Below are positions 8,875 through 38,038 of a stretch of DNA of 39,508 nt, in pieces. The DNA comes from a virus: positions 1 to 39,508 of the IMG/VR virus record IMGVR_UViG_3300009124_000037, one strand, 5' to 3'. Below the pieces are notes generated by a model. The model made no database searches. It saw nothing but the letters and a program-made list of their open reading frames with translations, and had not been told where the DNA came from. Within the stretch, counting starts at the first letter, position 1. Every line of letters begins with the position of its first letter. The position numbers and the translations under genes were made by a program.

Positions 8875-8895
8875 ATCTATAGGGGTCTCTTAGTT
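8875..8895 (-). promoter_or_regulatory. Candidate phage RNA polymerase promoter for replication genes
   Basis: Minus strand CTAAGAGACCCCTATAGAT, immediately after the RNA polymerase stop codon. The same 19 bases occur before the RNA polymerase gene (11376) and a close variant before the integrase region (13073). The CTATAG end matches the initiation part of T7-family promoters. It would drive SSB, endonuclease I and the genes beyond. Confidence 0.8.
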
Positions 8896-11354
8896 CAGCT
8901 GAAGCAATATTCGCTGTCTAAGACTGCTCGGACGTCTAGTGCGCCCTTCTGTGGGATTGGTGGTAAATCCATGTCTGGATCTGCCAGTCGGTTTCTGCAT
9001 TCGTACTCGAAGTTCTCGAAGATGCAGTTGTCCTCATACATGTCGACTATCGCGTTGCGTATGCAGTGGTAGAAAGTCCATGTCTGGGATGCTGTGGTGG
9101 CAAAGCTATCGTGGATCATAAAGAAGTCCTCGATGCCCTGCTCTAGTCCATGAATGATCGACAGGTGCATGTGGGCTGCGTCCATTGAATGAATAACATT
9201 AGCAGCTATACCAGCCCGAGACTTACGGGTGTCATACAGCTGCCCTGCGCTGTGTATGGTCAGACGTGAAGGTTTCTTTACCTTTGCCTCTCTGTCGAAC
9301 AGGAAGATCCTAACACGCGCCTCTGTGGACTTGGTGTACCTTTGGATAGCTGGGAAACCACTCGGTGTTGTCCAACGTACTGACCTATTCTGACGGGCCA
9401 GTGCATCGGCGTAGGCTTGAAAGAAGTCCATACCCAGGGCCACCGAAGAGATGACTTTACGCACCGCCGCATAATTAAACTTAGCGAGGTGACGTGCATA
9501 CCGCTCCTGTTCTCTATAGTCACCGAAAGGATGCTCGGGGATCTGACCATAGTTTACGTCGCGCTGTAGTGGCTGCATGAGATCCTCAATGATCTGGTCA
9601 CCAAAGCCACGCTCGACGCTGGAATAACCGAAGGTCATTACATTTCTTTTACAAGTGGATCTTGTGATGCCGAAGCCTAACCAGAACTGGCTATCCTCAG
9701 ATCCATCAGCTTTTAGATCTTCTTTCACTTGGTCGGCGACTACCTGGTAGACATCATTACACTTGTCACTTGGTACCAGGTTAACCATCGAGGCATCCTT
9801 CTCGTTCCTCATAGCTAGGCTATAGTGTTGAACCCCAGAGTTTGTACCATCCATACTGATCGGTAAATAACACTTGGGATCCTCGCTATAGTAGGCAAAG
9901 ACAGCTGCCAGGAACTGAAATGGTTTATCAGCGATTGACCACAAGTCTATGGTTTTCCTGGGGTCTTCGTTGACCAGGCGTAGCCATTCGTCATTGTCAA
10001 TGACCCACTGAATCCTGTCTTCTAGTGACGCCTTCGAGATCTTATCGAAGTCACCTGTGTTGGCTAAGTGTATCGCAAGCCAGCCTCGGTCTTCCTCAGC
10101 AACCTCTCGGCCCCTTGCAAACTCAAACAGTGCTTTCACATGGTCATCTCTGTGATACGAAAAGGCACTGCATGGGTACATTCGGCCTCGAAAGTCGAAT
10201 GACCACCCTAGCCAGAACTGGTCAACCTCAGACAGGCTTTTTGCAATCTTAATGTCATCTTGCATGACAACCAGGTTAGCTACCGACTCCCGTCTTTTCC
10301 TGTGCCAGTCCTTTTGGTCCCTCTTCAGCTGACGCTGTGTTCTTTCCTCTAGGTCTTCAAAGTCTTCTGGTAACCTGGGAAAGATCGGTGGTTCCAATTC
10401 TGGAAACTTACCAAATCTTAGGCGTTCCTGACAGCAATATTCTACAGCCTCTAAGACCCGTCTATTGATGCGCAGAGGGGTGGCCTGGAGTGCATTAATA
10501 GCTTTGACATACAGAGGCTCTATTTCCTTCTCAAAGTCCCTCTCTACGGCTCTCTTTTGCTCCCCTGTGGCCCTTCTGACGAGGGGAACTAAAGATGACA
10601 AAAGTTCATCTTGGTAGACACCAGTATCAAATGCAGTCCAGGGCTTTGGTGGAACTACAAGAGGACCAAAGGCTGGCTCGGCCCAGCTTGCGTCAAACGC
10701 TCGTTGCTTAATGAGTGCTTCAGCTTCTGGTGTCAGACCAATAGTCCTAAGTGTCTTTAGTTTTCGTTGTTCAGTAACAACTTCAAAGATCTCTGAACAC
10801 TCTAAGACAGCATTGATTATCGGTGAGGCCACATGAGCCTTCATAGTGTAATCCCACTTGTCTAACTTAAAGCCAGCACGGTTAGCTATGATACGTGCAG
10901 CCTTAATCCTGTAGCGTTCACTAGAGTGGTCTCTGGTTACCTGGTCCACCAGGCGTTTCCACAGCTTGTTGTCGTAGGATTTAAGTTCTTTAGACCAGAT
11001 CTCCTGTTCTACTCGCATACCGATGTTCGTACAGGTAGACGTCAGGTTGTGATTACGGCAGACACTTTCGTAACAGGCGTTCAGACCTATGAAGGCTAAA
11101 GTATTAGGATCCTGGTCTTGAAGTATGTCATACCACAGGCTCTTCTTACCAGTGCCACTGCTGAACCTTTTCTCGTCTTCTTTAAGTGCTAAAGATATGC
11201 CTTTAGCTACCTTTGGTAGAGCTTCAGTAATAAGCCTGTGTGGAACTTCTCGTTGACTGGGTGTTAGTTTCTCTTGGCGACGTGTGTATCTCTCCTGACC
11301 CCTTTGGATCATTTGTTGCTCGAGTTCTTTCTGAAGTTCGATGACTTTAGTCAT
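8895..11354 (-). CDS. T7-type single-subunit RNA polymerase
   Basis: DNA-dependent RNA polymerase of 819 residues (T7: 883) that transcribes phage genes from its own promoters. Motifs: ISMDGTNSGVQHYS (motif A, catalytic Asp), ITRSTCKRNVMTFGYSS (motif B with the essential Lys and Tyr, like T7 Lys631 and Tyr639), and FFMIHDSFATT (motif C, Asp749). ATG 11354 has AAGGGAG about ten bases upstream, only about 24 bases from the predicted start of the 11376 promoter, implying positive autoregulation. The terminator at 11443 separates it from the integrase. Confidence 0.96.
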   Translation of the reverse strand: MTKVIELQKELEQQMIQRGQERYTRRQEKLTPSQREVPHRLITEALPKVAKGISLALKEDEKRFSSGTGKKSLWYDILQDQDPNTLAFIGLNACYESVCRNHNLTSTCTNIGMRVEQEIWSKELKSYDNKLWKRLVDQVTRDHSSERYRIKAARIIANRAGFKLDKWDYTMKAHVASPIINAVLECSEIFEVVTEQRKLKTLRTIGLTPEAEALIKQRAFDASWAEPAFGPLVVPPKPWTAFDTGVYQDELLSSLVPLVRRATGEQKRAVERDFEKEIEPLYVKAINALQATPLRINRRVLEAVEYCCQERLRFGKFPELEPPIFPRLPEDFEDLEERTQRQLKRDQKDWHRKRRESVANLVVMQDDIKIAKSLSEVDQFWLGWSFDFRGRMYPCSAFSYHRDDHVKALFEFARGREVAEEDRGWLAIHLANTGDFDKISKASLEDRIQWVIDNDEWLRLVNEDPRKTIDLWSIADKPFQFLAAVFAYYSEDPKCYLPISMDGTNSGVQHYSLAMRNEKDASMVNLVPSDKCNDVYQVVADQVKEDLKADGSEDSQFWLGFGITRSTCKRNVMTFGYSSVERGFGDQIIEDLMQPLQRDVNYGQIPEHPFGDYREQERYARHLAKFNYAAVRKVISSVALGMDFFQAYADALARQNRSVRWTTPSGFPAIQRYTKSTEARVRIFLFDREAKVKKPSRLTIHSAGQLYDTRKSRAGIAANVIHSMDAAHMHLSIIHGLEQGIEDFFMIHDSFATTASQTWTFYHCIRNAIVDMYEDNCIFENFEYECRNRLADPDMDLPPIPQKGALDVRAVLDSEYCFS

Positions 11355-11442: not shown

Positions 11443-11464
11443 AAAAGGGGCCTATTTGGCCCCC
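11443..11464 (-). terminator. Intrinsic terminator overlapping the integrase stop codon
   Basis: Minus strand GGGGCCAAATAGGCCCC then TTTTG. The stem is six GC pairs; the integrase TAG stop codon lies in the loop and upper stem, so translation to the stop would cover the hairpin. It separates integrase transcription from the RNA polymerase unit. Confidence 0.8.
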
Positions 11465-12294
11465 ATACGTCTCGCTATTTCGTCTGCCATTTGAGGCGTC
11501 CGATGGACGTATTTAGAGGTCGTCGCCAGGTCACGGTGGCCCAACTGTTGAGCTACGGCAACGGTAGGTAACTTTAGGTCGTTAACCATACGTGTTGCAG
11601 CCGTGTGGCGTAGCGTGTGAAAGACAAACTCTTCGTCCCGAGGTGCAATGTTGTCACGCGCCTTAGCCCACGTTCTGTAGAAGCTAATGCGGATGAAGTG
11701 CTTATTAGGCTCGAACTCTAGTGCCATCAGTGCAGCGAAGGTTTTACCAGCGCAGATGACATCGCGGTCATCACCGTTCTTGGTCTTCTTCAGATGTACA
11801 CAGCACTGATCGGTAGAGACATCAACCATGTCTGGAGTGATCGATAGGATCTCACCTAGACGCATTCCTGTGTTCACGGCAATGGTGCACATGTGGCGCA
11901 TCCACCAGTACTTACCGTTTCCATACTCAGCTAGAAATGCATCTAGTTGGACTACCTCTTCTTCAGACAGGTAACGTACACGACTGGTGTTCACACGTTC
12001 AAACTTTATCTTGGGTAGCTTGTCGATCAATTCGAGATCGAATGCATACTTCAGGCAAGTGCTGATAGCCGCCTTGTAATGATTGATCGTATTATCGGAC
12101 AGCTTGTCATCATCACGTAAGCTGACGCAGAACTGATGGATATCTAAAGCTGTCACGTCGGATATATCTTTGAACCCAATGTTCTTAAATGCAGCAAACC
12201 GATGCATCTTCACGATGCTTTCTTGAACGTGCTTTGGTGTCTTGTTGTACCAGATGTTGCGGCTTTCGCTGTTAATGAAATCAGTAAAGTTCAT
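11452..12294 (-). CDS. int: Tyrosine recombinase (phage integrase)
   Basis: Site-specific recombinase of 280 residues. An N-terminal SAM-like core-binding domain is followed by a catalytic domain with Arg145 (NTGMRLGE), a Lys near 170-172, His226 and Arg229 (HTLRH), His253 (LGHRD) and the nucleophile Tyr262 (SKYVH). All catalytic positions are intact. ATG 12294 has GGGGAG upstream. It lies about 650 bp from a tRNA-derived attP at 12948-13010, which it presumably recombines with the host tRNA gene. It has no large N-terminal arm-binding domain that I can clearly see, though the first 60 residues may serve. Confidence 0.93.
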   Translation of the reverse strand: MNFTDFINSESRNIWYNKTPKHVQESIVKMHRFAAFKNIGFKDISDVTALDIHQFCVSLRDDDKLSDNTINHYKAAISTCLKYAFDLELIDKLPKIKFERVNTSRVRYLSEEEVVQLDAFLAEYGNGKYWWMRHMCTIAVNTGMRLGEILSITPDMVDVSTDQCCVHLKKTKNGDDRDVICAGKTFAALMALEFEPNKHFIRISFYRTWAKARDNIAPRDEEFVFHTLRHTAATRMVNDLKLPTVAVAQQLGHRDLATTSKYVHRTPQMADEIARRMGAK

Positions 12295-22059: not shown

Positions 22060-23185
22060 CTATGAAAGACCAGTGATCATACCACCGTCAGCATAGTTCA
22101 TATGCTTCAATGAGTATTCGCCGACGATGAAGTGTTTGTCGGAGTCACCGTTCTTCGCCAACAATGTACGTGAGAACGGACGTAGTACGCATGAACGCCA
22201 CATTGACGGATCAATTAGGAATGCGTGTGTAGTCAACTGGTGGCGGTTTAGAACCACTTTGTATTCGCCGTATGGAGACACGTACAGGTCAATCACGTTG
22301 ACCAAGTTGCGTCCTTGGGCGATCTCACGGTTACGTCCAGAGGCCGCTGCAAAGTTTGCAACGATCTGAGCGTCAGCTGGTTTGATCATAAGAACTGATG
22401 GATCAGAACCGTTGTTGAAGCAGTCTTCACCAAGCTCTAGGACTTTCGCCTCAGTTAGAGCGTCAGTTGCGTTGGCACCAGCGTCGACAGATGTTGAGAT
22501 CTGTTGTGTCGCTGAGTCCATCTCACGCGCTACTGAGCTTGAGCCAGAAGCCGCTGCGTTGTCGACACCGACATAAGCACGCTCTAGGTCGCGCTTGATC
22601 TCTTTAAGTGCCTTACCAAGTTGGTCATTAATGTTCGCCTAAGGTCGTTAATCTTAGACCGCCCGAAGGCTGCTTATGCTTTCACATAAGATCAGACTAT
22701 GTCATGTCAGTTAGTTACTGACCGATGCGCTTCCACTCACTTGAGTGTACTTCCTTACGGAATAGTCGTTGCACGTTCCTCTTGCGAGGCTTCGCTCAAA
22801 GTTACCATATCTTTCGACTTAGGCTTCCTTTGAATTCACATCGTTTATACTACGCTACCAATTTTAACGCAGTTTCCTTCGCACGACCATATGTTGCAAT
22901 CGCATCAGCAGTTGCAGACACCTGGAACGCTTTGTGTAGGATCTGGGTGTTGTTTGTACGCTCTACAGCATCTGTAAGAGTTGCCATAGTTGCGTCGGCC
23001 CCTTCCACCTGTGCGTTATCCGCAGCAGCTGCAAGTGAGTCTTCAAGCCAACTGAATGTACGAGCAGAGACTTTCTCTGAGCGCATCATTGTGAACATTG
23101 GCGTATCTGTTGGTGTGATATCTGAAATGATGTCAGATACATCTTCTTTCTTACCGACCTGGTCGTAAGTTGTATATGTAGCCAT
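22060..23185 (-). CDS. Major capsid protein, gene split by a group I intron
   Basis: Exon 1 is 23185-22867 and exon 2 is 22625-22060. Joined they give 885 nt, 294 residues and a stop. The protein starts MATYTTYDQVGKKEDVSDII and belongs to the HK97-fold capsid group typified by phage SU10. At the junction exon 1 ends in ...RAKETA plus T of the next codon and exon 2 begins AC CAA CTT, giving RAKETAYQLGKALKEIKRD, the conserved pattern of the family (YGRAKE-AYQL-K). Unspliced reading gives a stop eleven codons before any exon 2 sequence, leaving a 111-residue fragment. ATG 23185 has AAGGA upstream. Scaffold precedes it. Confidence 0.92.
22626..22866 (-). ncRNA. Group I intron in the major capsid gene
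   Basis: A 241-nt intron with no ORF. P1: exon end ACTGCGT pairs with GCGTAGT (22849-22855), U:G at the splice site. P10: TTGGT (22857-22861) pairs with the first five bases of exon 2, ACCAA. P3: GATGTG with CGCATC. P4: TCAAAG with CTTTGA. P6: CCTC-GCAA-GAGG. P7: GACTAT (22762-22767) with ATAGTC (22695-22700), set in the classic GTGCAACGACTA and GACATAGTC contexts. P8: GTCAGT with ACTGAC. Two extra hairpins between P7 and P3 (TTCC-GTAA-GGAA and CACTC-AAGT-GAGTG) suggest subgroup IA. P9: CTTATG with CATAAG. The intron ends in G as required. Confidence 0.93.
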
Positions 23186-24597: not shown

Positions 24598-26637
24598 CTA
24601 CCCAGTCGGTGAAGCGATAGCGCGGACGTCGTCTGCGGTTCTCGCAATCTTCAGTTCTTCGTTGTCGACGAACTGCTTGTGTTCCAGCTGCGCCTCTTTC
24701 AGATCCATACTGTCTGACTGAATTGCGAACTGGTTCTGAGCTTTCAGCTTTTCTAGCTGTAGCTTCATCTGTGCAATCTGGGCATCCATCTGTGCCTTCA
24801 TCTCGGCAACCTGAGTTTGACGCTCTTGAAGCTCCATTTGCTTCTGTTGCATCTGCATCGCCATTTCCTGTGCTGGATCTGGTTGCTGCTCTGGAAGATC
24901 TGATGGTGGTGTCAGGTAGTCTTTGACATTCTTGATGCCGTTCTGCTCCATGACGTGTGTCATCAGCTTGTACTGGTTTTCTGGCGTGTACATAGATGCC
25001 AAGGTTGGGTCCTGTCCCATCAATGTATGTAGCGCCAAGTACTTCTGTGCTTCCTGTTCTTGTTCGCCATAGCCTAGGTGCATCTCGACAGTGACATCCC
25101 GCTTGGCACCCCAGTCACCAGGGCTGACAGCAACGTAATCACCAGAGATCTCAACGATCTTTGCTTGTGGTTCATTCTCAACGACCAGCTGATAGATCAT
25201 CTGATACAGTGGGCGTAAGAAGTTGTTAGCGAAGTTACGTGCAATGATCTTCTGACGCTGCTGGGACATAGTCGCCAGCTGCTCAACCATAGCTGCTGAG
25301 TTCTGCTTACTGATTGCGTCCTTGTTAAGACCCTGGGACAAACGTGAGACGCCAGTGGTGTCTTCCTTGTCCTCGTCCAGCATTTGAATTGTCTGGAAGA
25401 TAAATGGGTTCAATGGTGCCTGGGCCATCGGAGTGATGGCGTCAGGTCTAGACACATTCACGATACCACCAACACGGTTGTCGATGAGTTCACGTGGGTT
25501 CGTTAGACCACCTTTGACAACCTGGTAACGCGGGTTGTTCGTGATCATTGCGTGATCCAAGATAGATCGTGTCAGAACTGTACGTGCAGTCTGGATAGGT
25601 ACGACCTTGGACCCGAAATTGGAACCGAAGAACGAGTGTGGGATCGGTAGCGGAACAAAGGCACAGAACGGTTTGTACGTGCACTTCTCTTTGTGCAGAA
25701 CGACGTTACCAGCCTTGATTACTTTGTACGTCTCAGCGATTCCAGAGCCATCGAGATCGATGTCCACATAAAGCTCATAAACAGTGATACTTCTAACTTG
25801 ATCCTGGAAACCTTTAGCGTTGAAGCCGCGGTCTTGACCAATGTCTTCATGACGTGCCAGGACCTCTGGATCGGTTTCCATTTCGACGTCTTCGTGATCG
25901 CCAATTTTAGCAATGAGCTTCTCGTCATACCCTGCCTCACGTAGTTCTGAGATTGTCATGGTCGTGCGGTGACCACAGAAACCAACGTCATCTAAAGACT
26001 TGGCTTGTGGTTCAATCACGAACTGTTCAGGTGCAATTGCCTCGATGACGACCTGACTTGTGTCCTGGTAAACACGTAGATCACCAGAGTAGAGACCAAG
26101 TTCGTCTTGCTCTACCTCTTCGATCTCCACATTGTCCTGGGCAACGACAGCGTCGAACTCTTCCTCGGTCAGATCCTGGATTGGCTCTAGGTAGCTTTCT
26201 TCACGCTCGTCCCAGTAGACCTTACAAAGACCAGCACGTGCAATGAGACCATCGTGAATGACTGACTGCATAACCTCAAACAAGTTGTTCTGACGGTTTG
26301 CTACATAGTCACAGTAGGCTGTAGCGATCTCAGCGATACGCACGTCCTCACCAGTCTGCGCGGCAAAACGCACGGTCTTGTAGCCTGTGCTGAATGTCTC
26401 TAGCAGTGCTGCCTTCATGCTCTCGACAGCATCATAGACGTCCATAGAGACATACTTAGAGTTACCGTCGTGCGCTGGGCGTGGGAGCGTGGCGTTATAA
26501 TAGTCGATTACCTTGCGGCGTTCCCTGGAGATCTGGCTGTCGTAATAACCGATAGATCTACGGATGTTATCATCGAGGATCGTGACGAGTTTATCGTCGT
26601 CCACCGCTTTGTAGTCTTTTTTATCCATAGTGATCAT
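24598..26637 (-). CDS. Portal protein
   Basis: A 679-residue protein. Dodecameric portal through which DNA is packaged and ejected. Segments typical of podovirus portals are visible: an N-terminal helical part with SRERRKVIDYYNA, VSMDVYDAVESMKAALLETF, then YCDYVANRQNNLFEVMQSVI and a long stem/wing region. The C-terminus is rich in Gln and Met and forms a coiled-coil barrel (MAMQMQQKQMELQERQTQ). It is longer than T7 gp8 and more like P22-type portals. ATG 26637 overlaps the TerL stop as ATGA. Confidence 0.9.
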   Translation of the reverse strand: MITMDKKDYKAVDDDKLVTILDDNIRRSIGYYDSQISRERRKVIDYYNATLPRPAHDGNSKYVSMDVYDAVESMKAALLETFSTGYKTVRFAAQTGEDVRIAEIATAYCDYVANRQNNLFEVMQSVIHDGLIARAGLCKVYWDEREESYLEPIQDLTEEEFDAVVAQDNVEIEEVEQDELGLYSGDLRVYQDTSQVVIEAIAPEQFVIEPQAKSLDDVGFCGHRTTMTISELREAGYDEKLIAKIGDHEDVEMETDPEVLARHEDIGQDRGFNAKGFQDQVRSITVYELYVDIDLDGSGIAETYKVIKAGNVVLHKEKCTYKPFCAFVPLPIPHSFFGSNFGSKVVPIQTARTVLTRSILDHAMITNNPRYQVVKGGLTNPRELIDNRVGGIVNVSRPDAITPMAQAPLNPFIFQTIQMLDEDKEDTTGVSRLSQGLNKDAISKQNSAAMVEQLATMSQQRQKIIARNFANNFLRPLYQMIYQLVVENEPQAKIVEISGDYVAVSPGDWGAKRDVTVEMHLGYGEQEQEAQKYLALHTLMGQDPTLASMYTPENQYKLMTHVMEQNGIKNVKDYLTPPSDLPEQQPDPAQEMAMQMQQKQMELQERQTQVAEMKAQMDAQIAQMKLQLEKLKAQNQFAIQSDSMDLKEAQLEHKQFVDNEELKIARTADDVRAIASPTG

Positions 26638-28211
26638 ACCATTTCAATGTAATAGTCATCTGCACTCTCTATCGGCTCCCAGGCGCCCTCGTGCACGTGA
26701 TTGGCTAATGCCAACGACATGACACAGTCGTCGTAGCATCCTGGTTCAGCTTCCATAGATCCGCTCTCAGTCACGACATATGTGAGCATTTCGCGGATCG
26801 TTGTTTTGTCATTAAGCTCGATCTCGTCTTCACGGACTGAGGCTCGTAGCTCGTCAATGATTAGAGGCTTTGTTTTTGCTGTCGTACTAAAGCCCAATTT
26901 GATGGTTTCTTTGTCCGTCAGCTTGTCTACTTGAACCTCAGTAAAGAAGTTCGGGTACGCCATATCTTTGGCTAACCTGGTGCACGTCAAAAGACCGTGA
27001 CCGTTGTTCTCAACAATGATGTACGCAGTGTTAAAGAAGTGACCTAGGTGGAACAACACCTGGGCGTAGTAGTCTGGGTGCACGTGGCCTCTCCAGGTCG
27101 CCACTTGGCGTTTCTTACTGTCGAGGACCTGGGCAACACTGTAGTCGCCCCCACGGACGCCCATAGCGACGTCAGCACCGATGACATACTGCTCACCAGG
27201 GTCATGACGTCTGTACATCGTCAGTTCGCCACGGACGTTATTGAGCCACTCCTCGCCCTCTAGGGCTAGGCGCTCCTGTACGTCCTGTGTAGTGCCCATA
27301 GCTTCCTGTAGCTGCTCTGGGTTAAACACGGGCCTACCTGTCGTCAGGAAGGCTTCCTCGGGCTCTGATGGGTACTCCTGTTTGAACAGGTCGAGGCCGT
27401 TCTGTGCAACCTTGCGACGACGGAACATAAGCTGCTCATCATCCAGGTCATACTTGGCTGCAAGATCTTCTTCGTCTGGGGTACGCTCGAAGTTCTCTGG
27501 GACCGTCTCTCGATACTCTGGATCTGCAAACCAAGGGATAAACACAGGTACGAAACCGTTGGTTCCCTCGACTGCACCCTTCCAGAGATCATAGAAGATC
27601 CCGCTGACACCATTGGCTGTACTCTCGACAAATATAGCAGTTCCTGGTGCATTGGGGACAGCTTGGGTCAGCGAGTTCCAGTTGTCGGCGGCGGTGGTCT
27701 TAGACCAGAACGCAAGCTCCGACGCATGAACGTGTGTCAGGGTCTCACCCCGACCAATTGCTTCACCACCAGCTGTAGCAACGACGTAGGAACTATCGAG
27801 TACATCGAAAGACAGTTCGCGGCGGGATGAATACTTTGTGTGTGGCTTCAGGATCTCAGGGCAGTTCTCATGGTAACGCTTGGTCATATCAAATAGCGCA
27901 CGTGTAGAGTCACTGTGGTGGGTAATCACCATTGCCTTTGCAGCTTTGCGCTGGGAAACACTGAAGTACAGATAGCCGCCCACGTAGGTAGACAGACCCT
28001 GTTGTCGGGCCTTCAGAATAATCACTCGGACTTTGCCTTCTGTCTCTAGTTGCTTAGTGACAGCGTCGTTGAGGATCTTCTGGGCTGGTTTCAATTTGAG
28101 GGGCGCAATGTCACCAGCCTTGGTGCGGATCTTTAGTGCGCCTTTTGCGTAGAAGCTGAAGTCAGTATACAGACGCTTACGAACCTCAACTAGCTGCTCC
28201 TTGGTAGCCAT
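26634..28211 (-). CDS. terL: Terminase large subunit
   Basis: Packaging ATPase and nuclease of 525 residues. ATPase part: variant Walker A KARQQGLSTYVGG and the segment THVHASELAFW for Walker B. Nuclease part: YVIGADVAMGVRGGDYSVAQ with the first metal Asp, and CYDDCVMSLALANH near the C-terminus. The start could be ATG 28211 (MATKEQLVEVRKRL), five bases after the TerS stop, or ATG 28238 inside TerS, adding nine residues; I prefer 28211. The Walker A lacking a GKT/S pattern is usual for this TerL group. Confidence 0.92.
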   Translation of the reverse strand: MATKEQLVEVRKRLYTDFSFYAKGALKIRTKAGDIAPLKLKPAQKILNDAVTKQLETEGKVRVIILKARQQGLSTYVGGYLYFSVSQRKAAKAMVITHHSDSTRALFDMTKRYHENCPEILKPHTKYSSRRELSFDVLDSSYVVATAGGEAIGRGETLTHVHASELAFWSKTTAADNWNSLTQAVPNAPGTAIFVESTANGVSGIFYDLWKGAVEGTNGFVPVFIPWFADPEYRETVPENFERTPDEEDLAAKYDLDDEQLMFRRRKVAQNGLDLFKQEYPSEPEEAFLTTGRPVFNPEQLQEAMGTTQDVQERLALEGEEWLNNVRGELTMYRRHDPGEQYVIGADVAMGVRGGDYSVAQVLDSKKRQVATWRGHVHPDYYAQVLFHLGHFFNTAYIIVENNGHGLLTCTRLAKDMAYPNFFTEVQVDKLTDKETIKLGFSTTAKTKPLIIDELRASVREDEIELNDKTTIREMLTYVVTESGSMEAEPGCYDDCVMSLALANHVHEGAWEPIESADDYYIEMV

Positions 28212-28215
28212 AGGC

Positions 28216-28704
28216 TTATTCTGCGTCGTCACCGTCATTGGTATCTAGCAGTGAGCTTAGGAACTCCTCAGCTTTACCGACAGTAATCTCTGACTTGGCG
28301 ACAGGTTTGACCTTGGTGAAGTCCAGGATCAATTTAGCTGCTTGAAGACGATCACGGTTGTGTACTGGTGTACGCATGATTTCCACTGCGGTTTCGAGTG
28401 CTTCCTCTGCGCGTGGGTCTTCGATGTCATACTCTTTCTTCATGATACTTACCGCCCTTTTGGCGTCCTCTTTTGCCTTGTTGACAATGGGTTTGATAGT
28501 TTCCTTACTGTGACCGTCTGGTACGCCCAGTGGCCTTCCCCCCTTGTTCTTTCGCTTTTCCATCATTGCTTTGAACTTGGCGCGTCCCTCGGGTGTCTGA
28601 TGGATTAGCCACAGTGGGTTCTTTTCCTTTGGTCTTGCTCGACCTGGCATCAGTTTTGGCTTTGGGGGTTGCTTCTTTCGAGGCTCGTTTGGCGGGTGAC
28701 CCAT
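28216..28704 (-). CDS. terS: Terminase small subunit candidate
   Basis: A 162-residue protein directly before TerL. A basic, Pro-rich start is followed by NKGGRPLGVPDGHSKETIKP and a helical segment (EEALETAVEIMRTPVHNRDR) of the type found in DNA-recognising small terminase subunits, then an acidic end. ATG 28704 has GGAG eight bases upstream, but the first 67 codons overlap the 129-residue gene in another frame; later starts at 28650 (MPGRARPK) or 28566 would shorten the overlap. It would choose the packaging site on concatemers. Confidence 0.75.
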   Translation of the reverse strand: MGHPPNEPRKKQPPKPKLMPGRARPKEKNPLWLIHQTPEGRAKFKAMMEKRKNKGGRPLGVPDGHSKETIKPIVNKAKEDAKRAVSIMKKEYDIEDPRAEEALETAVEIMRTPVHNRDRLQAAKLILDFTKVKPVAKSEITVGKAEEFLSSLLDTNDGDDAE

Positions 28705-28913: not shown

Positions 28914-31900
28914 TTATGCAGACAGTGCTCCAGGCATCATTGGTTGGTTCAATGCGCCTGGTGGCATTTGCTGCTGCTTGCGCTCTTCCTCGTCATCCAT
29001 AGCCATCTCCAGAGCAACTAATGCTGCCATGACAACCGCTAGTGGGTGCGCATAGAACTGTATGACCGTGTTGTTAGCCTTGCGGAACTCTTGCTGGATC
29101 ATCTTAGATGTCACAGGCATTAGCTTCTTGGCTAACTTTGGGTTGATCAAGTAGACCCATACAGGATCCACAGCAAACTCCGCAGCCATACGAGTGTAGT
29201 CTTTGTATGCTTGCTTTGTTTCCTGTGAATATTCTGGATTGGACATTACCTGACGAATAAACCTTACGGCCCTTCGCTCATTAGGGTTCTTAGGTGAATA
29301 TGCTTCGACGTTCTCCTGTAGATCAACAATCTCTGCATATGCCTTCTTTTGCGTAGGAGACATCTGCTCCCAATTCGCATCCAGTAGTGGCTTAATTGCA
29401 CTGTCGGTAAACGATCCAGGTGCTGTAAAGTCAGAACGACCTAAAATACCAGTGCCTGGTTTAGACGACTGTTTCCTGTTGATGAAGTAAGAGTATATTT
29501 CTTGCTCACTCTTGCCATCCAGTGGCCCTAAAGTGATCGCGTGAGAGATCTCGTGTAGGAGAGTGGTGAGTGCCTCAATGTCAGTGACATAGGTGCCATC
29601 ACCCTTGTCAGCACCAGGTTTCATTGCCCAGATTGTGCCTTCAGTACCCTTACCCTGTTTCTTTGGTCCTTTGCGTTGGAACATGCCACGGAAAGTACCC
29701 ATTGTAGATTGGTCTCGACCTGTGTCCAAATAGAGCAAGGTGTTAAGCTCGTTTTGGGACATAGCCAGCCTAACGACGATACCTAGTTTCTTTGCAAACT
29801 CGACAGCGTCATTAAAGTTGCTGATGCCATCTTCAAGTTCACCACCCTTCAGTCCAATTTGGAACTGAGGACGAATAAGCTCAACGACAGCTTTCTTGTA
29901 TTGCTCCGCAGTTACTTGGGGCTTTTCAGCGGGAATGACATCGGGTCTGGGTCCGTCAGGATTGGCTCCTGGGCTGGTATCACGGAGGATTGGCTCTGAA
30001 GGGCCTTCCGTGCTTGGGCCATCTCCACTAGCTCCTCGATTGCTGTTTTCATATGCTCCCGAGGGATCTGACTGATTATTGACGGTTCCGTCTCCGTCTG
30101 CATCGGGGAGTGCTTCTTGGATTTGGTCATTTGTTATTCCTTCGGCTTCAGCCAACATGATTGCAGCATCTAGATAATCATTATCTGCGCCTCTTCCAGG
30201 GGCAACACCTAAATGCCTAAACAATTGTTTCTCAGGGTACCACATAAGTGCTTGAAAATCAGCTGTTTCGATATTGTAGCCAAGATCACGTAGTTTAGCG
30301 ATTGCAGCCTTTGTGACATCACGCATGTATGAACGCTCACCTGGTCCCGATGGTGTAGCCTGTAGTTGTGGTGACAAGTTGTCTTTCATAGTTCCTGTGG
30401 CTAGTGCCAACTCTGGTTTAGGAACCTTCTGACCTGTGCCTTTCAGACGCTTTGCTTCTTTGTTGTAGAAGCTCTGGTACTTACGCGCAAAGTTGAGAAC
30501 AAAGTCATCTAAGACAGCATCTTTCTTCAAGTCTGCCCTAGTTAGGCCCATGTCCTTGAGTGTTTCTTTTGTCAAACGCTTCTCAAGGGCATCCTGGTTC
30601 TTTGTCTGTAAGGCTTTACGCACACGCGCACGGTTAACATCCAAGTCTTTCTCAGATACAAACGGACGCCCGACCAGACGGTTCCACATGCGCATCCACC
30701 AGATGTCCATCGTTAGTGGATCATAGTTGCCACGGATGTTCTGATAGAAGCCCTGACCAATCTTAGGCCCTGCAATGAATGAACCCTTGACCATCTCATT
30801 GGCACCTTCCGAGGAAGGCACTGTGATGTTGGTACCGTAGCGTTCATTGAAACTTGCTGCCCAGTCTTTTAGCTCTTTCACAGTAAAGTCTTGGTCTAAG
30901 AACTCTTGGATTGGTAGGTTTGTACCTGACGCTTGATAATCGTTGAAGAACTCAAACGCCTCAACCATAGCTGCATTGCGCTTCCCACCCTTCTTCCAGG
31001 TTGTTGTAGGCATCTGACCGTTGTCCATAAAGTGACGGAATACCTCTAACGCATACTGGAAGTTGTCAGCGACAGCCTGTCCATTTGATGTAATTGCTAG
31101 TGCAAAGTCGAATGCTACCTCTGCGTCTGGTGACTGGGTGACACGTGGGTCTACAAGAGACACTACGCGCTTCGCTGCTTTCAGCTTACGGTCATACCAC
31201 CCGATGGCGTTAGCATCACTCTGAAGAGCGTTGACAGCTTCTGTCGCCATGTAGGTCGAAATGATGTCGACGTTTTCAGGTGTATACTCAAACGGTTCAT
31301 CACGGCCTGTCGCTGCCTTCCACTTCTCGTACATGTAGTCGGCTGCTTCAACCAATGTGCGCTTTTGTTTAGGCTTGTATGTGCCTTCACGCATCTTCTG
31401 AATCTCAGCTTCGCTTGGGGACGAGTTCAGGCGTGTAGCATCGATCTCATTTTCTGGTACCTGTAGTGGATTGACGTAAGACTGCAATGCTGGGTTCTGA
31501 GGTGCAGAAGGATCACTTGTAGGATCTACGTCAGGCAACATTGGCTCGTCTGGAGACACACGTGACGCCTGTTGACGTGTCACACGGTCAACGTACGGTT
31601 TAACGTACGTGTCGATGGCTTCCTGAGGTACACCAGCCTCTTCTAGCTTCTGCACTTGTTCCTGGGCAGCTGCTACTGGATCTGAACCTAGGTTGTTTGC
31701 CAGGACATCCAGAGACGTAATCAGACGTCCCTTCTGCACACGGTTCAACTCAGGATCTGCAGTGACACCCTCGACCAACTCAGCGTTCATTGCCTGGTTG
31801 GCCTCAATGCCACGGTTGTAGTTTTCCTGGGTGGTTAACTGTGGGCCAAACGTCTGAGCTTGCACTGGGTTGGCCTCAGTCGTGTCGACGTTAGGTGCCT

Positions 31901-34112
31901 GACCTGGTGCGGCTGCGTTTGCCAGCATTGGGTTACTCAATGAGTTCGGTGGGCGAACCATTGGCACGTAGTCTGGGTTATCCTGTTGGAACTGACGTAC
32001 CGCACGGATCAATGGGCTTAACATCTTGTCTTCAACGATGCCGCCTGTTGCAACACTCTGCTCATAATCTGCTATTGCACGTGTCAGGGCAGGGTTTTTA
32101 TTCTGTGCCTTTAAAATGCGTAGGATACGTGCGACGCCATCACGTGATAGACCTGTTGCGTCTTCCAGTGTGTACTGTGGGCTTCCTGGTGTTGCTGGTG
32201 CACCTTCCTGGACAAGCTGTAGGTTCAACTCACGCTGCTCTGCCTCACGTGCAGTGCGTAGGGCCTCTTCACGCAATTTGGCGTCTTCGTCGGCCTGTAG
32301 TTGCGCTGCGGCTGCGTCACGTAATGACGGTGCAGTAGGTGATGGTAAACCAGGTGTCTCAGCGTTACGACGTACAAACTTGTCGATCTGACTGTAGTTG
32401 CCTGTTAGTTTGTCGATTGCTCGACCACCACCAGATACAGCCATCTGCGCTGGGATGCTTAGACCGCCCGTAGAAACCGCTGCACCACCACTGATGATCG
32501 GGCGTAGTAGGCGTTCTGTGGCTACGGCACTTTTGTCATAGCCAACCTTGCTTCCTAGGATTGAGAACTGGTCTGTAAATGCTGAAAGACCGCCCTGGTA
32601 ACCACTGTTGTGCAACTCAGTCAGCTGATTTAGCTGTAGGATCAAATTGATGGCCTCTTGGCCTTCTCTTGTGTCCCCTGCTAGTGATTTAAGGGCTTCT
32701 AGCTCCTGATTTCCGACAAGATTCTTGGTTTTGTTGCGGCCTTCACGATACGCAGCCTGGGCAAGGATCTTTTCTGACACACTTTCGAACGTATCTGCCT
32801 GGTTTGGCTTCACGCGGGACTTCATGTCAGCAAATCGCTGCTTTAGGGCCTCAGTAAGCTGCACGTGGGCAGTGTCAACGACAGCACGGGCACCTGTAGC
32901 CGACGTTTTATCAATGTCTGTTAGGCTCCAATCAGGGTTTGCGTCTGTGATAGCTTTAAATGTACGCGCCAGGTCTCCAGCTGCTTGCTGTTGGGTGTTG
33001 TCAAGGTCTTCTGGCTTCTTCAGGCTACCTTCGTCGGTGTACAAACTGTTGTTTATTGTGACACCAATTGTACCAACACCACCACCAATGACTGCACCAA
33101 CAAGTGCTGACTCAGCTGCGCCTTCGTTCCACCCACGCTCTGGGTCGTAGATGTTCTGGGCGATCAAGTTGTTGGCTACGGTCTGTGCATACTCTTGTGC
33201 AGCCTCTTCACCTGATGACTGCGCAATGTCAGACACCTTTTTCCAGAACTTAGATCCAACCTCTTTGCGTAAACGCGGTGGTAATAGCTTCAGTGCACGT
33301 GTGATCGGGACGATCTCAGTTGTACCAACCCATGCACCAAGCTCTGCGGCCCGTTTTGCATCTTCTTCAGTTGCACCAGCGAGTTTAGCTTCTTTATAAA
33401 GCTGGCTGGAGTTCATCCCAGCACCAGCCCCTAGAGCAAATGGGCCCTGCGCGATCATACCAGCGACTGTACCGCCGCCTTGGGCTACCTGTGCCCAGAA
33501 ACTCTGATCATTTGGCTGTGGTGCACCAAATACATCTTCAGATGTCTTACGCAGTGCATCACCAGCCTTAAACAGGTCGCGATCCTGTGCGTCAGGCTTT
33601 AGATTTACTTCGCCGCCATTGGTGACAGCACGAAGATACGCCTCGTTACTGGGTAAACCTTTAGGACCTACACCTCGACCAGGGACAGCCCCTGCAATCA
33701 TCTCACGAAGACGGAACTGCTCGTCCTGGTATCTGCGGTTTAGTTCCGCTGGTACTTGACGGTTAGCTTCCTTATAGGCCGCTACGCGTTCCGCATAGTC
33801 TTTCTCTAGTGCCGCAAGATCTTCTTTTGCCTTTTGTACAGTCTCAGAGACGACGTTTGCACCCGCGTTAGGGTTACCAGCACCAGCAATTGCTGCGGCC
33901 TCTGGGAGAGACGCAAATGCCTCTGTGGCACCCTGTGCGAACTGTTGACCGCGTTGTTTTACCAGATCACCAAAACTATCGTATTGAGGGGTCACTGGTG
34001 CGGCAGGGATTGCACCTAGTTTCTTTTTAAGAGCAGCTAGAGCACCTTCTCGTGTAGCTCCAGTGACTTTGTATTTCTTGCCATCTGGAGCCGTAATAAG
34101 GAACTCAGCCAT
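28914..34112 (-). CDS. Giant internal virion protein with C-terminal zincin motif
   Basis: A 1732-residue protein. The start MAEFLITAPDGKKYKVTGAT (ATG 34112, AGGATAAG upstream) is a common opening of large marine podovirus virion proteins. Residues about 300-400 include a Gly-rich hydrophobic patch (SALVGAVIGGGVGTIGVTIN), suitable for membrane insertion. A long helical middle follows, then a conserved-looking block around WWMRMWNRLVGRPF, then an Asp-rich DADGDGTVNN (possible Ca site). HEISH at 1520-1524 (HEXXH) followed by MAAEF (Glu1645 as possible third ligand) suggests a zinc metallopeptidase. Likely the counterpart of T7 gp15/gp16, ejected with the DNA. Host or self cleavage is unproved. 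Confidence 0.75.
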   Translation of the reverse strand: MAEFLITAPDGKKYKVTGATREGALAALKKKLGAIPAAPVTPQYDSFGDLVKQRGQQFAQGATEAFASLPEAAAIAGAGNPNAGANVVSETVQKAKEDLAALEKDYAERVAAYKEANRQVPAELNRRYQDEQFRLREMIAGAVPGRGVGPKGLPSNEAYLRAVTNGGEVNLKPDAQDRDLFKAGDALRKTSEDVFGAPQPNDQSFWAQVAQGGGTVAGMIAQGPFALGAGAGMNSSQLYKEAKLAGATEEDAKRAAELGAWVGTTEIVPITRALKLLPPRLRKEVGSKFWKKVSDIAQSSGEEAAQEYAQTVANNLIAQNIYDPERGWNEGAAESALVGAVIGGGVGTIGVTINNSLYTDEGSLKKPEDLDNTQQQAAGDLARTFKAITDANPDWSLTDIDKTSATGARAVVDTAHVQLTEALKQRFADMKSRVKPNQADTFESVSEKILAQAAYREGRNKTKNLVGNQELEALKSLAGDTREGQEAINLILQLNQLTELHNSGYQGGLSAFTDQFSILGSKVGYDKSAVATERLLRPIISGGAAVSTGGLSIPAQMAVSGGGRAIDKLTGNYSQIDKFVRRNAETPGLPSPTAPSLRDAAAAQLQADEDAKLREEALRTAREAEQRELNLQLVQEGAPATPGSPQYTLEDATGLSRDGVARILRILKAQNKNPALTRAIADYEQSVATGGIVEDKMLSPLIRAVRQFQQDNPDYVPMVRPPNSLSNPMLANAAAPGQAPNVDTTEANPVQAQTFGPQLTTQENYNRGIEANQAMNAELVEGVTADPELNRVQKGRLITSLDVLANNLGSDPVAAAQEQVQKLEEAGVPQEAIDTYVKPYVDRVTRQQASRVSPDEPMLPDVDPTSDPSAPQNPALQSYVNPLQVPENEIDATRLNSSPSEAEIQKMREGTYKPKQKRTLVEAADYMYEKWKAATGRDEPFEYTPENVDIISTYMATEAVNALQSDANAIGWYDRKLKAAKRVVSLVDPRVTQSPDAEVAFDFALAITSNGQAVADNFQYALEVFRHFMDNGQMPTTTWKKGGKRNAAMVEAFEFFNDYQASGTNLPIQEFLDQDFTVKELKDWAASFNERYGTNITVPSSEGANEMVKGSFIAGPKIGQGFYQNIRGNYDPLTMDIWWMRMWNRLVGRPFVSEKDLDVNRARVRKALQTKNQDALEKRLTKETLKDMGLTRADLKKDAVLDDFVLNFARKYQSFYNKEAKRLKGTGQKVPKPELALATGTMKDNLSPQLQATPSGPGERSYMRDVTKAAIAKLRDLGYNIETADFQALMWYPEKQLFRHLGVAPGRGADNDYLDAAIMLAEAEGITNDQIQEALPDADGDGTVNNQSDPSGAYENSNRGASGDGPSTEGPSEPILRDTSPGANPDGPRPDVIPAEKPQVTAEQYKKAVVELIRPQFQIGLKGGELEDGISNFNDAVEFAKKLGIVVRLAMSQNELNTLLYLDTGRDQSTMGTFRGMFQRKGPKKQGKGTEGTIWAMKPGADKGDGTYVTDIEALTTLLHEISHAITLGPLDGKSEQEIYSYFINRKQSSKPGTGILGRSDFTAPGSFTDSAIKPLLDANWEQMSPTQKKAYAEIVDLQENVEAYSPKNPNERRAVRFIRQVMSNPEYSQETKQAYKDYTRMAAEFAVDPVWVYLINPKLAKKLMPVTSKMIQQEFRKANNTVIQFYAHPLAVVMAALVALEMAMDDEEERKQQQMPPGALNQPMMPGALSA

Positions 34113-34122
34113 ATGTCTTATC

Positions 34123-35034
34123 CTAGTTGTTAGTCGTGGATGGTACTTCCTCGATGGTGTACCCATCGTCATCAACTGTTGGTTCAGTTGTTGTCGTAGG
34201 TGCTGTCGTCGGGGTGTAAGGTGCGCCCCCCGCAGCTGCGCGGATCTTCTTAGCAATTTCCAGGCGTTTCTGAATCTGTGGAATCCAAGAACCTTCGTTA
34301 TCCAGCGCGATGTCTGGGAACGGAGACATAAACAAGGCCATCTCTTGGTTCGAGATTGCACCCTTAGTATGGGCTGTCTTAGTTAACGTCTGGTCAACCT
34401 TAAACTCTTGTAGCAGCTGTCTCAGGTATGCACGTTTCGAACCGTCGTCTGTACCTGTCCACCAGTCCGAAATACCTAATCTGTCCAGCCATTTCCCAGC
34501 CGTGCCATCAATGAGGCCAGTTAGACCACCCTCTTGCAGACCTTGTAGGATCGTTTCCATTGTTTCGATCTGGTAGTCAGCCTGTGTAATAGCTTCTTGA
34601 TCTGGCTTGTCGCCTTCTTTACCAGCCCCTGTCGAGTTCATCTTACGCATCAGATCCTGACGACGCTGCTCTTCAAGCACACGGTCTTGCTCGATTGCCA
34701 TACGTTCCATGTCGGCCTGGCGGTTGTAGTCCTGGATGCCACCATAGGTATCCATGCCAGCTGAGTAAGCTGATAGAGCACCATCACGTGCACCACCCAT
34801 CATGGCCCCGCCGATACGCATGAGGCCCTCAGTGCCCATGTTGATCCGATTGTCAGGGATCATAGGAAAGTTCATGCCACGGGATTGTCTTGCGTTTGAC
34901 GTGTACTTTGACAGCTGTGCAGCTGAGACTGGGGGCGTGTATGGACGCTGCGCCAGAACAGGCTGCTGACCATAAGTCACGGGGATCTGGCCCCCTTGGC
35001 TTAGTGCTCCTTGGGGGAAACTAAAATTAACCAT
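34123..35034 (-). CDS. Internal virion protein candidate
   Basis: A 303-residue protein starting MVNFSFPQGALSQGGQIPV. A Gly/Ala/Met patch (LMRIGGAMMGGARDGALSAY) leads to a charged helical region (ADMERMAIEQDRVLEEQRRQ) and a Thr/Pro-rich end (TPTTAPTTTTEPT). It lies between the tail core protein and the giant virion protein, the place of gp14/gp15 in T7. ATG 35034 has AGGAG upstream. Function in ejection is inferred from order only. Confidence 0.6.
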   Translation of the reverse strand: MVNFSFPQGALSQGGQIPVTYGQQPVLAQRPYTPPVSAAQLSKYTSNARQSRGMNFPMIPDNRINMGTEGLMRIGGAMMGGARDGALSAYSAGMDTYGGIQDYNRQADMERMAIEQDRVLEEQRRQDLMRKMNSTGAGKEGDKPDQEAITQADYQIETMETILQGLQEGGLTGLIDGTAGKWLDRLGISDWWTGTDDGSKRAYLRQLLQEFKVDQTLTKTAHTKGAISNQEMALFMSPFPDIALDNEGSWIPQIQKRLEIAKKIRAAAGGAPYTPTTAPTTTTEPTVDDDGYTIEEVPSTTNN

Positions 35035-35046
35035 AGTTCTTAGCTC

Positions 35047-36114
35047 CTACACAAAGAATGAAAGTGGATTGAACCCACCGCCGCCAAAGAAACCACCGCC
35101 TGAGGATGGCATAGGTGGTCCTTGCATTGGACCAATTATGGAATCTACTAAGCTGCCACCCGCACCCCAGCCAGAACTCATGCCGCCTATTGTTGCGGCT
35201 GTCGGGTTGACCATGTTTGGAACGTAGTTGCCTCGAATGCTTGCGATTGGTGAAACTGCGCTTAGGTAATCAGACGCTGCGCCAAAGCCAAACGTGTTGT
35301 CTACGTTGTACTTCTCGCGTTCTGCATCACGCATACGCTGGTCATAGGTATTGAGGTTGTCAGCTGCACCCAACGACATGTTACCACCAGAGACAGCCAT
35401 ATTGTTACCAAGACGGAACATGTCAGCCATACCAGTGTTTACACCGCTTGCGTTGTTCAAGGCGCTCATCTGCTGTGTGAACTCATTGTTGCTTTGGTTC
35501 AGACTTGCGTCACGTAGGTTGTTGAATACGTCGGATCTGACGTCAGCGCGGCGGTCATCATAGGCACGCTGTGCGAGTGCATCGGCGACGCCAGCGCGGC
35601 TAGAGTTTACGTTGCCAGACCCAGATGCCGCCATGTTGATCCCTGGTAGCGTCTGCTCGTTTAGCTGACGCGTGCTGTCGCGCATCATAGCGTCGACAAT
35701 TGGGTTCATGTTGTCAGTGGCATACTGAGTAGCCGCAGCCATGGTGTCAGGGCGATTGGCAGCTGTAGTGAACTGATTGTATAGATCTGTAGCGTTGCCA
35801 GCGAAGCCACCAGTAGTGTTCATGATGTTCTCGCCACGAGACATGTTGTCACCGCCCATGCCATACAGGGCACGGTTGGCAGCAATTTGCTCCTCGCTTG
35901 GACCGACGTAGTAGTCTTTGTTGAAAGGTCCTCTGGCGATCATGTCGTCATATGCCGACTTTAGACCTGACATACCGCCAGTCACATATGGAAAGGCTGC
36001 ATCATAGTACTGGTTGTTTTTCTTGTTAGCTTCGTCGATAGCTGCACTATCGTCTCGCGCACCCTTGTTGGCAAGCAAGCCGCCAGCGACAGCACCAATG
36101 ATTTGGCCCCACAT
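35047..36114 (-). CDS. Internal virion protein candidate, gp14-like position
   Basis: A 355-residue protein. MWGQIIGAVAGGLLANKGAR gives a Gly-rich hydrophobic N-terminus, a plausible membrane-inserting helix; the rest is rich in Asn, Ala, Met and Gln with helical segments and a Gly/Pro/Phe C-terminus (SGGGFFGGGGFNPLSFFV). T7 gp14, an ejected core protein that enters the outer membrane, has a similar plan. ATG 36114 has GGAG upstream; the in-frame TTG at 36126 is less likely. Confidence 0.65.
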   Translation of the reverse strand: MWGQIIGAVAGGLLANKGARDDSAAIDEANKKNNQYYDAAFPYVTGGMSGLKSAYDDMIARGPFNKDYYVGPSEEQIAANRALYGMGGDNMSRGENIMNTTGGFAGNATDLYNQFTTAANRPDTMAAATQYATDNMNPIVDAMMRDSTRQLNEQTLPGINMAASGSGNVNSSRAGVADALAQRAYDDRRADVRSDVFNNLRDASLNQSNNEFTQQMSALNNASGVNTGMADMFRLGNNMAVSGGNMSLGAADNLNTYDQRMRDAEREKYNVDNTFGFGAASDYLSAVSPIASIRGNYVPNMVNPTAATIGGMSSGWGAGGSLVDSIIGPMQGPPMPSSGGGFFGGGGFNPLSFFV

Positions 36115-36149
36115 AGGCTTCTCCAATCGTGTTTTATTATTAGTTGTTT

Positions 36150-36430: not shown

Positions 36431-38038
36431 CTAGCGTCTCCCAGTGACAATGATGTCAACATCCATGCCTGACAGGGTCATGTCATTGGTAGTGTCTGCT
36501 GTCACCTTGTAGCTTAGGTAACGACCAGATGCCCGACTATCGAGCTTGTAAGCTGTCTGGATAGTGAAGGCTGTCGGGTCACCGTAGTTAGGCACTGTGT
36601 TAGGTAAGTCAGCCGCACCGAAGTGGAAGTCCACTGAAGTGGCAGCGTCGATACTAGACACCTGAGGGTAAATTGCCTTGATGATCTTATAACCAGACAA
36701 CGGGATCTGGGACTCGTCCAGGTCAATCCCTACGCGCTCCAGGATGATTTCTGTAGATATATCACTCGCGTGCTCTAGGGACAGGGTACCTTTGTCAATG
36801 TTATCCAGGGCAAGCAATCGGCTAGACGCTATACCGTCTCCAGTGCTCTCACGGGATACCATGAGTGGGTACTGGGTATATTGGCTTTCCTGGTTATGAT
36901 AGGTTCCACCAATTGTAGCGTAAGTTGACGTAACAGTGGCGTAGGTCAGTGTGGTGTTCAGGTTACCTGAGGTGCCAGAGATGACGTTAGGTAGATCCAC
37001 GAATGACCAGGTGTTTTCACGATAGTTAAAGACAGCTGCTCGGTTACATGAGTCACTGTCTGTGTAGATCGCCATGTCATCACCTGTGTGATAACAGAAG
37101 TAGATCTCCTCTAAGACATCATTGTGTTGCACAAAGCACTGCTCAGATTTAGACTTATCGAGGCCATTGAAGATGTAATCACGGACGCGGTTGTCACAGA
37201 TAGACTGACGGGTGACACCATCGTGCATGTAGATGTCATTACCATCGAAGACGTAGTGGCGCCCCTCGACTGACACAATGCAGTTCTTGTTGATGACACC
37301 AGCGTCGTCAAAGACCTTACGGAAGTTGAAGATAAAGGTGCCACCTACGAATTCCATGAGCCATACCTGGTCAGAGGAATAGATAAAGAAGTTAGTACCT
37401 AGGGTGACACCATCAACGATGGGCGTCTTCATCTGCACCAGGTCGTTAAACCCAGCGCTGTTTGTTGTGTCTGTCTCGTCCCAAGTGCCAGGGACCTGGT
37501 TGGCAAGCACAATGTCTGAGAAACGGACACGGTTAGGGTACTCAGTGCCAGCCTCGGTTGTGTTCAGTGCAATCAGGAAGTCACCAAAAGATCTCAGGAT
37601 CTTACAGCGGTGGTTCGAGGGCCAGTTAGGCAGTGCACTAAATGTAGACTGGGTCGGCCCACGATAGACGGGCACGAAGTCTGGACGATTGAGATACTCA
37701 ATGTTGGCAAGTGTTGTACCAGTCACGGGGACCGTAGCCACACTGGGGGATGCATTGGTGTAAACCTGGGTGACAGTCCCGTTGGCATACTCGTGTATGT
37801 GAAAGTTCTCGTCAGCCATTAAGATCGTGTCATAGGATCCAGGCTGGGAGATACCCATAGTGAACGCTGGGGTAAATGACAGGGTACTGGCGTTACGGAA
37901 CACGGGGGACCGCTCGACGTTGCCCTCTGTGAACCTGACGTTCTTTGCTCTGGTGTAGGCGTTGAACGGTAAGTTGAAGGGGTCAACATCAGTAATTACA
38001 CCTACGGCACCGAGGTTTCGTATAGGGAGCGTAGGCAT
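36431..38038 (-). CDS. Tail nozzle-like protein (beta-propeller type)
   Basis: A 535-residue protein, beta-rich with regular aromatic strands (WLMEFVGGTFIFNFRKVFDD, GNDIYMHDGVTRQSI, RAAVFNYRENTWSFVDLPN), as in tail tubular B or nozzle proteins that form a propeller at the tail end. The start MPTLPIRNLGAVGVITDVDP, followed by AYTRAKNVRFTEGNVERSP, is typical of this group (first half MPT..., then RNVRF-EG). ATG 38038 has AAGGA upstream at long spacing. It would cap the short tail and hold fibres. Confidence 0.75.
   Translation of the reverse strand: MPTLPIRNLGAVGVITDVDPFNLPFNAYTRAKNVRFTEGNVERSPVFRNASTLSFTPAFTMGISQPGSYDTILMADENFHIHEYANGTVTQVYTNASPSVATVPVTGTTLANIEYLNRPDFVPVYRGPTQSTFSALPNWPSNHRCKILRSFGDFLIALNTTEAGTEYPNRVRFSDIVLANQVPGTWDETDTTNSAGFNDLVQMKTPIVDGVTLGTNFFIYSSDQVWLMEFVGGTFIFNFRKVFDDAGVINKNCIVSVEGRHYVFDGNDIYMHDGVTRQSICDNRVRDYIFNGLDKSKSEQCFVQHNDVLEEIYFCYHTGDDMAIYTDSDSCNRAAVFNYRENTWSFVDLPNVISGTSGNLNTTLTYATVTSTYATIGGTYHNQESQYTQYPLMVSRESTGDGIASSRLLALDNIDKGTLSLEHASDISTEIILERVGIDLDESQIPLSGYKIIKAIYPQVSSIDAATSVDFHFGAADLPNTVPNYGDPTAFTIQTAYKLDSRASGRYLSYKVTADTTNDMTLSGMDVDIIVTGRR

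Follow-up and report, generated by a model that had tools for sequence, protein, structure and literature searches.

Ejection proteins are usually regarded as DNA conduits, and at the locus described here a probable ejection protein ends in what appears to be a zinc metallopeptidase. The window (the whole stretch of DNA that was analysed, 39,508 nucleotides) is a 39.5-kb podovirus record with a scaffold gene, and a gene in it had been predicted to encode a 1732-residue protein with the motif HEISH at residues 1520-1524. The open reading frame, on the minus strand, confirms both the length and the motif, which occurs once. Translation from an ATG at 34112 to a stop codon at 28914-28916 gives the 1732 aa; a longer, GTG-initiated frame extends to 34361, and this is an unlikely start because the MAEFLITAPDGKKYKV start is common to several relatives. 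The features discussed below are collected in Table 1.

Table 1. Features of the giant protein and of its neighbourhood, in window coordinates.
Feature	Position	Strand	Basis or remark
Giant ejection-type protein P0001, 1732 aa	28914..34112	-	ORF and relatives in IMG/VR
Exchangeable N-terminal domain, residues 40-352 (phrog_10691)	33057..33995	-	E 8e-50
Central all-helical module, residues 890-1340, candidate HhH-GPD DNA glycosylase/lyase-like payload	30093..31445	-	Conservation, AF2, VIA-align
K1117/G1128/D1136/R1141 in GPKIGQGFYQNIRGNYDPLTMDIWWMR	30690..30764	-	Invariant residues, HhH-GPD-type spacing
Disordered Gly/Pro/Ser/Asp-rich linker from centre to zincin, residues 1341-1400	29913..30092	-	dS dip, identity jump, low pLDDT
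Zincin metallopeptidase domain, residues about 1410-1685	29058..29885	-	AF2 model and VIA-align
HEISH (H1520, E1521, H1524; residues 1520-1524)	29541..29555	-	Two predicted zinc ligands and general base; once per relative ORF reaching the site
Y1639-x5-E1645-x3-D1649	29166..29198	-	Conservation; predicted third zinc ligand E1645, supporting D1649, candidate catalytic Tyr1639
C-terminal tail, residues 1686-1732: hydrophobic helix, acidic run, doubled PGAL(S/N) motif	28917..29057	-	
303-aa upstream neighbour, in the place of T7 gp15	34123..35034	-	Synteny
359-aa protein, phrog_4287 'DNA ejection protein', in the place of T7 gp14	35047..36126	-	E 3e-10, synteny in relatives
535-aa virion structural protein (phrog_3287)	36431..38038	-	E 2e-99; 49-75% identity in relatives
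Single-subunit RNA polymerase gene	8895-11354		Separate from the giant
Portal	24598-26637		
Terminase	26634-28238		

The neighbourhood of the gene bears directly on its role. The 303-, 359- and 535-aa proteins of Table 1 stand upstream of it. Downstream lie a 129-aa protein, the terminase small subunit and TerL, and the 535-, 359-, 303- and 129-aa neighbours recur in most relatives whose loci extend that far; the 535-aa phrog_3287 protein is possibly the nozzle or tail tube. From this position and synteny we infer, with good confidence, that the giant protein is packaged and ejected, and its place as the large third protein of an ejection trio supports the earlier comparison with T7 gp16. The absence of a transglycosylase motif, also part of the original prediction, agrees with a Pfam scan of the whole 1732-aa protein, in which neither a transglycosylase nor any other family was found above cut-off. 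Orthologues of the 303-aa protein in three relatives (L037, L054 and L066) do carry an SLT transglycosylase. No host is proposed, because a scan of genome contigs with the giant protein gave a single distant MAG match. Elsewhere in the window, a Group I intron (RF00028, 68 bits; 22673-22876, minus strand) lies inside the major capsid protein gene and contains no endonuclease ORF; the 241-nt insert is present in L002 and L003 and absent in L024, L031 and L051. An ORF at 11452-12294 (minus strand) reads as tyrosine-recombinase-like by its sequence, in a genome that otherwise looks lytic.

To follow the HEISH motif, relatives were collected with six peptide patterns, none of which overlaps it, giving about 180 relatives in IMG/VR from which 78 distinct loci were retained. 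HExxH occurs exactly once in 76 of the 79 relative ORF pieces, and the other three (L022, L046 and the first half of the frameshifted L063) stop upstream of the site. The same motif is found in 1 of 444 other ORFs of at least 250 aa from these loci, taken as a control, and the chance expectation from composition is 0.002 for the giant protein. An aligned C-terminal set comprises 58 distinct sequences with 20-94% identity to the window protein; its rows were chosen for HExxH, so that the 58/58 seen there holds by construction and 76/79 is the unbiased figure. Within this set 57 sequences have Glu at the E1645 position, the sole exception being the frameshifted L063; 56 have Asp at D1649 and 57 have Tyr at Y1639. 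The full Y-x5-E-x3-D motif is present in 53 of 54 full-length relatives (in L041, Glu replaces Asp) and holds down to about 20% identity. Close relatives show a dN/dS of 0.05-0.19 for the zincin domain. The zincin alleles as such diverge to about 20-40% identity. A distant Glu ligand, which had been considered plausible, can thus be assigned to E1645, and the proposed comparison of the His and Glu positions across relatives reveals conservation rather than loss.

AlphaFold2 (AF2) modelling of residues 1381-1732 from 49 sequences gave a pLDDT of 84 and a pTM of 0.78, with most of the domain above 90 and values of about 96-98 at both active-site helices. The secondary structure is that of a zincin core (sheet plus active-site helix): in model numbering, strands 65-72, 96-100 and 112-122 come before two helices, 131-148 with HEISH and 263-276 with E1645 and D1649. 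The structural comparison that had been suggested therefore places HEISH where a zincin-like fold has its active-site helix, and not in an unrelated helix. A Foldseek search of the PDB gave as its best match anthrax lethal factor, at a non-significant E of 0.034. When the Foldseek candidates were aligned with VIA-align, the rows were nearly all zincins and the best were of M34 type: the lethal-factor catalytic domain came first (Z 8.1, 152-153 residues, 3.8 A, a Z of 8 being the edge of specificity), and PPEP-1, -2 and -3 followed at Z 7.0-7.4, with 138-145 residues aligned of about 185-208. Sequence profiles contribute little: Pfam peptidase profiles, the MPTase models included, gave no match above cut-off, a PDB sequence search with the zincin profile returned nothing useful, and scans of this domain and of the centre with Pfam, PHROGs and NCBIfam gave weak scattered matches at most. 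Because a VIA-align Z of 8 is found together with conserved ligands, the C-terminal domain is very likely a gluzincin-type zincin, and H1520, H1524 and E1645 most probably bind zinc in an active peptidase. What is new is a family of zincins that no Pfam profile matches above cut-off, together with the Y-x5-E-x3-D signature and the C-terminal tail. The prospect of a chance HEISH in an unrelated helix is practically nil, being ruled out by conservation, fold and third ligand. A role as wall hydrolase was also set aside, the wall enzymes lying in neighbouring proteins of relatives; to our knowledge, zincin-fold HExxH enzymes are not a usual type of wall hydrolase.

Directly C-terminal of the zincin, residues 1683-1708 (28989-29066, minus strand) include the 19-residue stretch of highest hydrophobicity in the giant (mean Kyte-Doolittle 1.94), which is kept in relatives and is a possible membrane helix. 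At the extreme C-terminus, a P/G-G-[AVIM]-L-[STNQ] motif is doubled in most relatives, and it also occurs close to the N-terminus of the neighbouring 303-aa protein (34123-35034), in each protein at more than 10 times the shuffled frequency. This PGAL-type motif may possibly be a docking peptide common to the two proteins, or else the tail may serve as a cleavage site.

The best conserved part of the giant is the central module, with 48-95% identity to relatives. K1117, G1128, D1136 and R1141 in GPKIGQGFYQNIRGNYDPLTMDIWWMR are invariant in 48/48 sequences and are kept in Limnohabitans phage DC33, in ctEw122 and in a Porticoccaceae MAG. Their spacing is K1117-(11)-G1128, K1117-(19)-D1136 and D1136-(5)-R1141, and K-11-G, K-19-D, D-5-R spacing is characteristic of HhH-GPD glycosylases/AP lyases (endonuclease III, OGG1); the endonuclease III-type sequences compared here have K-11-G, K-18-D and D-5-R. 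The AF2 model of the centre (pLDDT 83) is all-helical, with D1136 capping a helix. VIA-align placed two archaeal AGOG 8-oxoguanine glycosylases at the top of 967 chains, with weak scores (Z 6.3 with 197/248 aligned and Z 6.2 with 189/242), lower than noise commonly produces with helical models, followed by unrelated helical hairpins of about 80 residues at Z 6.1 and lower. The PF00730 (HhH-GPD) and PF09171 (AGOG) profiles did not match the centre, hhalign against endonuclease III/MutY-type sequences was negative, and a PDB search with the central profile returned coiled fragments only. To judge from motif spacing, fold rank and the OGG2 match of its replacement described below, the centre looks like an HhH-GPD DNA glycosylase/lyase-type domain, a reading that we keep as a working hypothesis. 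The view of the zincin as the enzymatic part of the protein is consequently modified: the zincin itself is supported, but it is probably not alone, since the better conserved centre looks to be of glycosylase/lyase type.

Identity to relatives along the giant jumps at a few places between background and more than 90%. The zincin is present in 54/54 full-length relatives, whereas the centre is present in 49 and missing in five (L023, L024, L049, L051 and L052), where a module of about 500 aa (A4; at 8927-10459 in L051) replaces it. This replacement contains GEGVGIDNKVVSFTLLVAGYDDVMVLDRVQMR, is unalignable with the centre and is negative against it in hhalign; in L049 and L051 the zincin is nevertheless 91-93% identical to that of the window. 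A profile of the replacement module built from 42 relatives had as its two best PDB matches the OGG2 N-glycosylase/DNA lyase of M. jannaschii (3fhf, E 0.022; 3knt, E 0.062), the alignment spanning the Lys/Asp motif. The strongest support for a DNA glycosylase/lyase-like payload is that one slot is filled by either of two unrelated modules, each of which suggests the same class of enzyme. The A4 module is also widespread in other giant phage proteins (L188-L266), many of which have HExxH elsewhere in the chain, and in L049 an FtsK gamma DNA-binding domain stands immediately ahead of it. Between centre and zincin, the linker at residues 1341-1400 has a dS of 0.02 in L005 and L002 against 0.3-0.7 in the flanks, is the place where identity to L049 and L051 climbs from background to 93-95%, and has low pLDDT in the AF2 models. 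It looks like a recombination seam and is also a candidate processing site. The N-terminal 33 residues look like a second exchange seam; the domain behind them (residues 40-352) is missing in most close relatives and, over residues 45-337 of the giant, is shared with the polyvalent protein of Ruegeria phage 45A6, at 43.5% identity.

What, then, would the zincin cut? The explanation that we favour as a whole, by a little more than an even chance, is a polyvalent ejection protein in the place of gp16 with the zincin as its processing protease. In a T7-like podovirus the giant would be the third, large ejection protein. A short leader, which is conserved, and an exchangeable N-terminal domain would open the chain; the DNA-acting centre, also exchangeable, would follow, and after a disordered linker would come the constant zincin and a membrane-type tail. 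Zinc would be held by H1520, H1524 and E1645, with water activated by E1521, and the zincin would cleave disordered linkers of the giant or of its ejection partners, either inside the head or during entry; cleavage at the linker would release the DNA-acting module. Processing of the giant or its partners is favoured because the zincin is never replaced by an unrelated module, follows a linker and keeps all catalytic residues. On this reading the payload of the polyvalent ejection protein acts on DNA and can be swapped, and the zincin is the processing module that stays constant.

Taken on its own, the choice of self or partner processing over attack on the host is evenly poised. The strong divergence of the zincin alleles could also reflect host targets, and the main rival, which we consider unlikely, is an injected effector that early in the infection cleaves an envelope protein, a defence protein or a transcription factor of the host. 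Alleles that vary strongly while the catalytic residues stay are what host-specific targets would lead one to expect; the nearest solved folds are enzymes acting on foreign proteins, and related giants carry other effector-type domains, e.g. ART-PolyVal. An effector-like independence of the zincin domain is, however, not seen among the relatives, nothing in the analysis indicates a host target, and the zincin is retained when the payload is exchanged; that the centre is swapped while the zincin stays speaks for processing of the giant or its partners no less than for host targets. Bacteriophage N4 provides a counterexample to processing, since its virion RNA polymerase has a zincin and yet is packaged uncut, and the zincin-containing region is required for encapsidation of the uncut protein (PMC5512222). 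A 2025 structure of the N4 protein places a conserved HExxH in domain C1, with no tested activity cited (PMC12633501). Both observations favour a structural zincin, needed for packaging the giant into the head and with little or no peptidase activity. We regard this as improbable, as the catalytic Glu of HExxH, dispensable for a purely structural part, is never lost in any relative.

There is also a broader reading, one that we offer tentatively and hold to be somewhat more doubtful than probable: short-tailed phages may inject a polyvalent protein with an HhH-GPD-type DNA glycosylase/AP lyase payload, swapped between AGOG-like and OGG2-like families, unrelated in sequence, via a conserved linker and released or activated by the constant zincin of the same chain. 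Substrates of the payload would be the entering phage DNA, for repair, or else host or modified DNA at the time of entry. The largest ejection protein here combines a never-lost peptidase with a centre for which either of two unrelated modules can stand, each suggestive of a DNA glycosylase, and such an exchangeable, possibly glycosylase-like centre is new. If this is true, podoviruses bring into the cell at entry both a DNA-acting enzyme and the protease that processes it, and the targets of zincins in giant phage proteins become directly testable via one Glu.

Comparison with known systems separates what is shared from what is peculiar to this protein. The M34-type zincins (PPEP-1/2/3 and the lethal-factor catalytic domain) are the best structural matches (Z 7.0-8.1 over 139-156 residues), and in them, as here, a Tyr precedes the Glu ligand. 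They differ in being secreted enzymes, the giant being a phage ejection protein; identity over the structure is 11-18%, and the giant's zincin has a large insert between HExxH and Glu. AGOG and OGG2 resemble the centre in the K-11-G, K-19-D and D-5-R spacing and possibly in the helical fold, for which Z is 6.3 at best; the centre matches neither PF00730 nor PF09171. T7 gp16 resembles the giant in its large size and its place in the gp14-gp15-gp16 order; unlike gp16, the giant lacks an N-terminal SLT transglycosylase, which some relatives have in the gp15-like neighbour, and a transglycosylase swap between gp16 and gp15 is known in other podoviruses (PMC8954989). The N4 virion RNA polymerase gp50 is likewise a giant ejected podovirus protein with an HExxH domain in its C-terminal half. 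The giant, unlike gp50, has no RNA polymerase module in the chain, the third ligand lies in EFAVD rather than in the ALNEFMAW of N4, and hhalign of the zincin against N4 C1 gave a probability of 28%, aligned at HExxH only.

A further parallel is with the polyvalent proteins of phages, of which the zincin MPTase is the commonest domain, the N4 virion RNA polymerase included (Iyer et al. 2017, PMC5512222). Proposed MPTase roles are self-processing (P1 DdrB), action after injection and host targets; DdrB undergoes cleavage ahead of packaging, for which its own C-terminal zincin has been proposed as the agent (PMC5512222). In distant isolates (DC33 and the podoviruses ctEw122 and ctQRb9) the proteins run to 2.8-3.2 kaa, and each of them combines the central module with LPD22, ART-PolyVal and a single HExxH; the polyvalent protein of Ruegeria phage 45A6 also has one HExxH. 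DC33 (PQ492659.1) is filed under Inoviridae, probably a taxonomy error; its 39-kb gene set resembles that of a tailed podovirus. The window giant has no named polyvalent Pfam domains above cut-off, and it conforms to the phage polyvalent type by its multidomain build, its place beside virion genes and its centre-sharing relatives with ART-PolyVal and LPD22. Like polyvalent MPTase proteins, it joins an HExxH helix and a later Glu helix within a multidomain chain encoded beside virion genes. A zincin in a giant ejection-type protein is thus a recurring and already described arrangement, within which the ExxxD ligand motif and the order of centre, C-terminal zincin and PGAL tail are peculiar to the giant.
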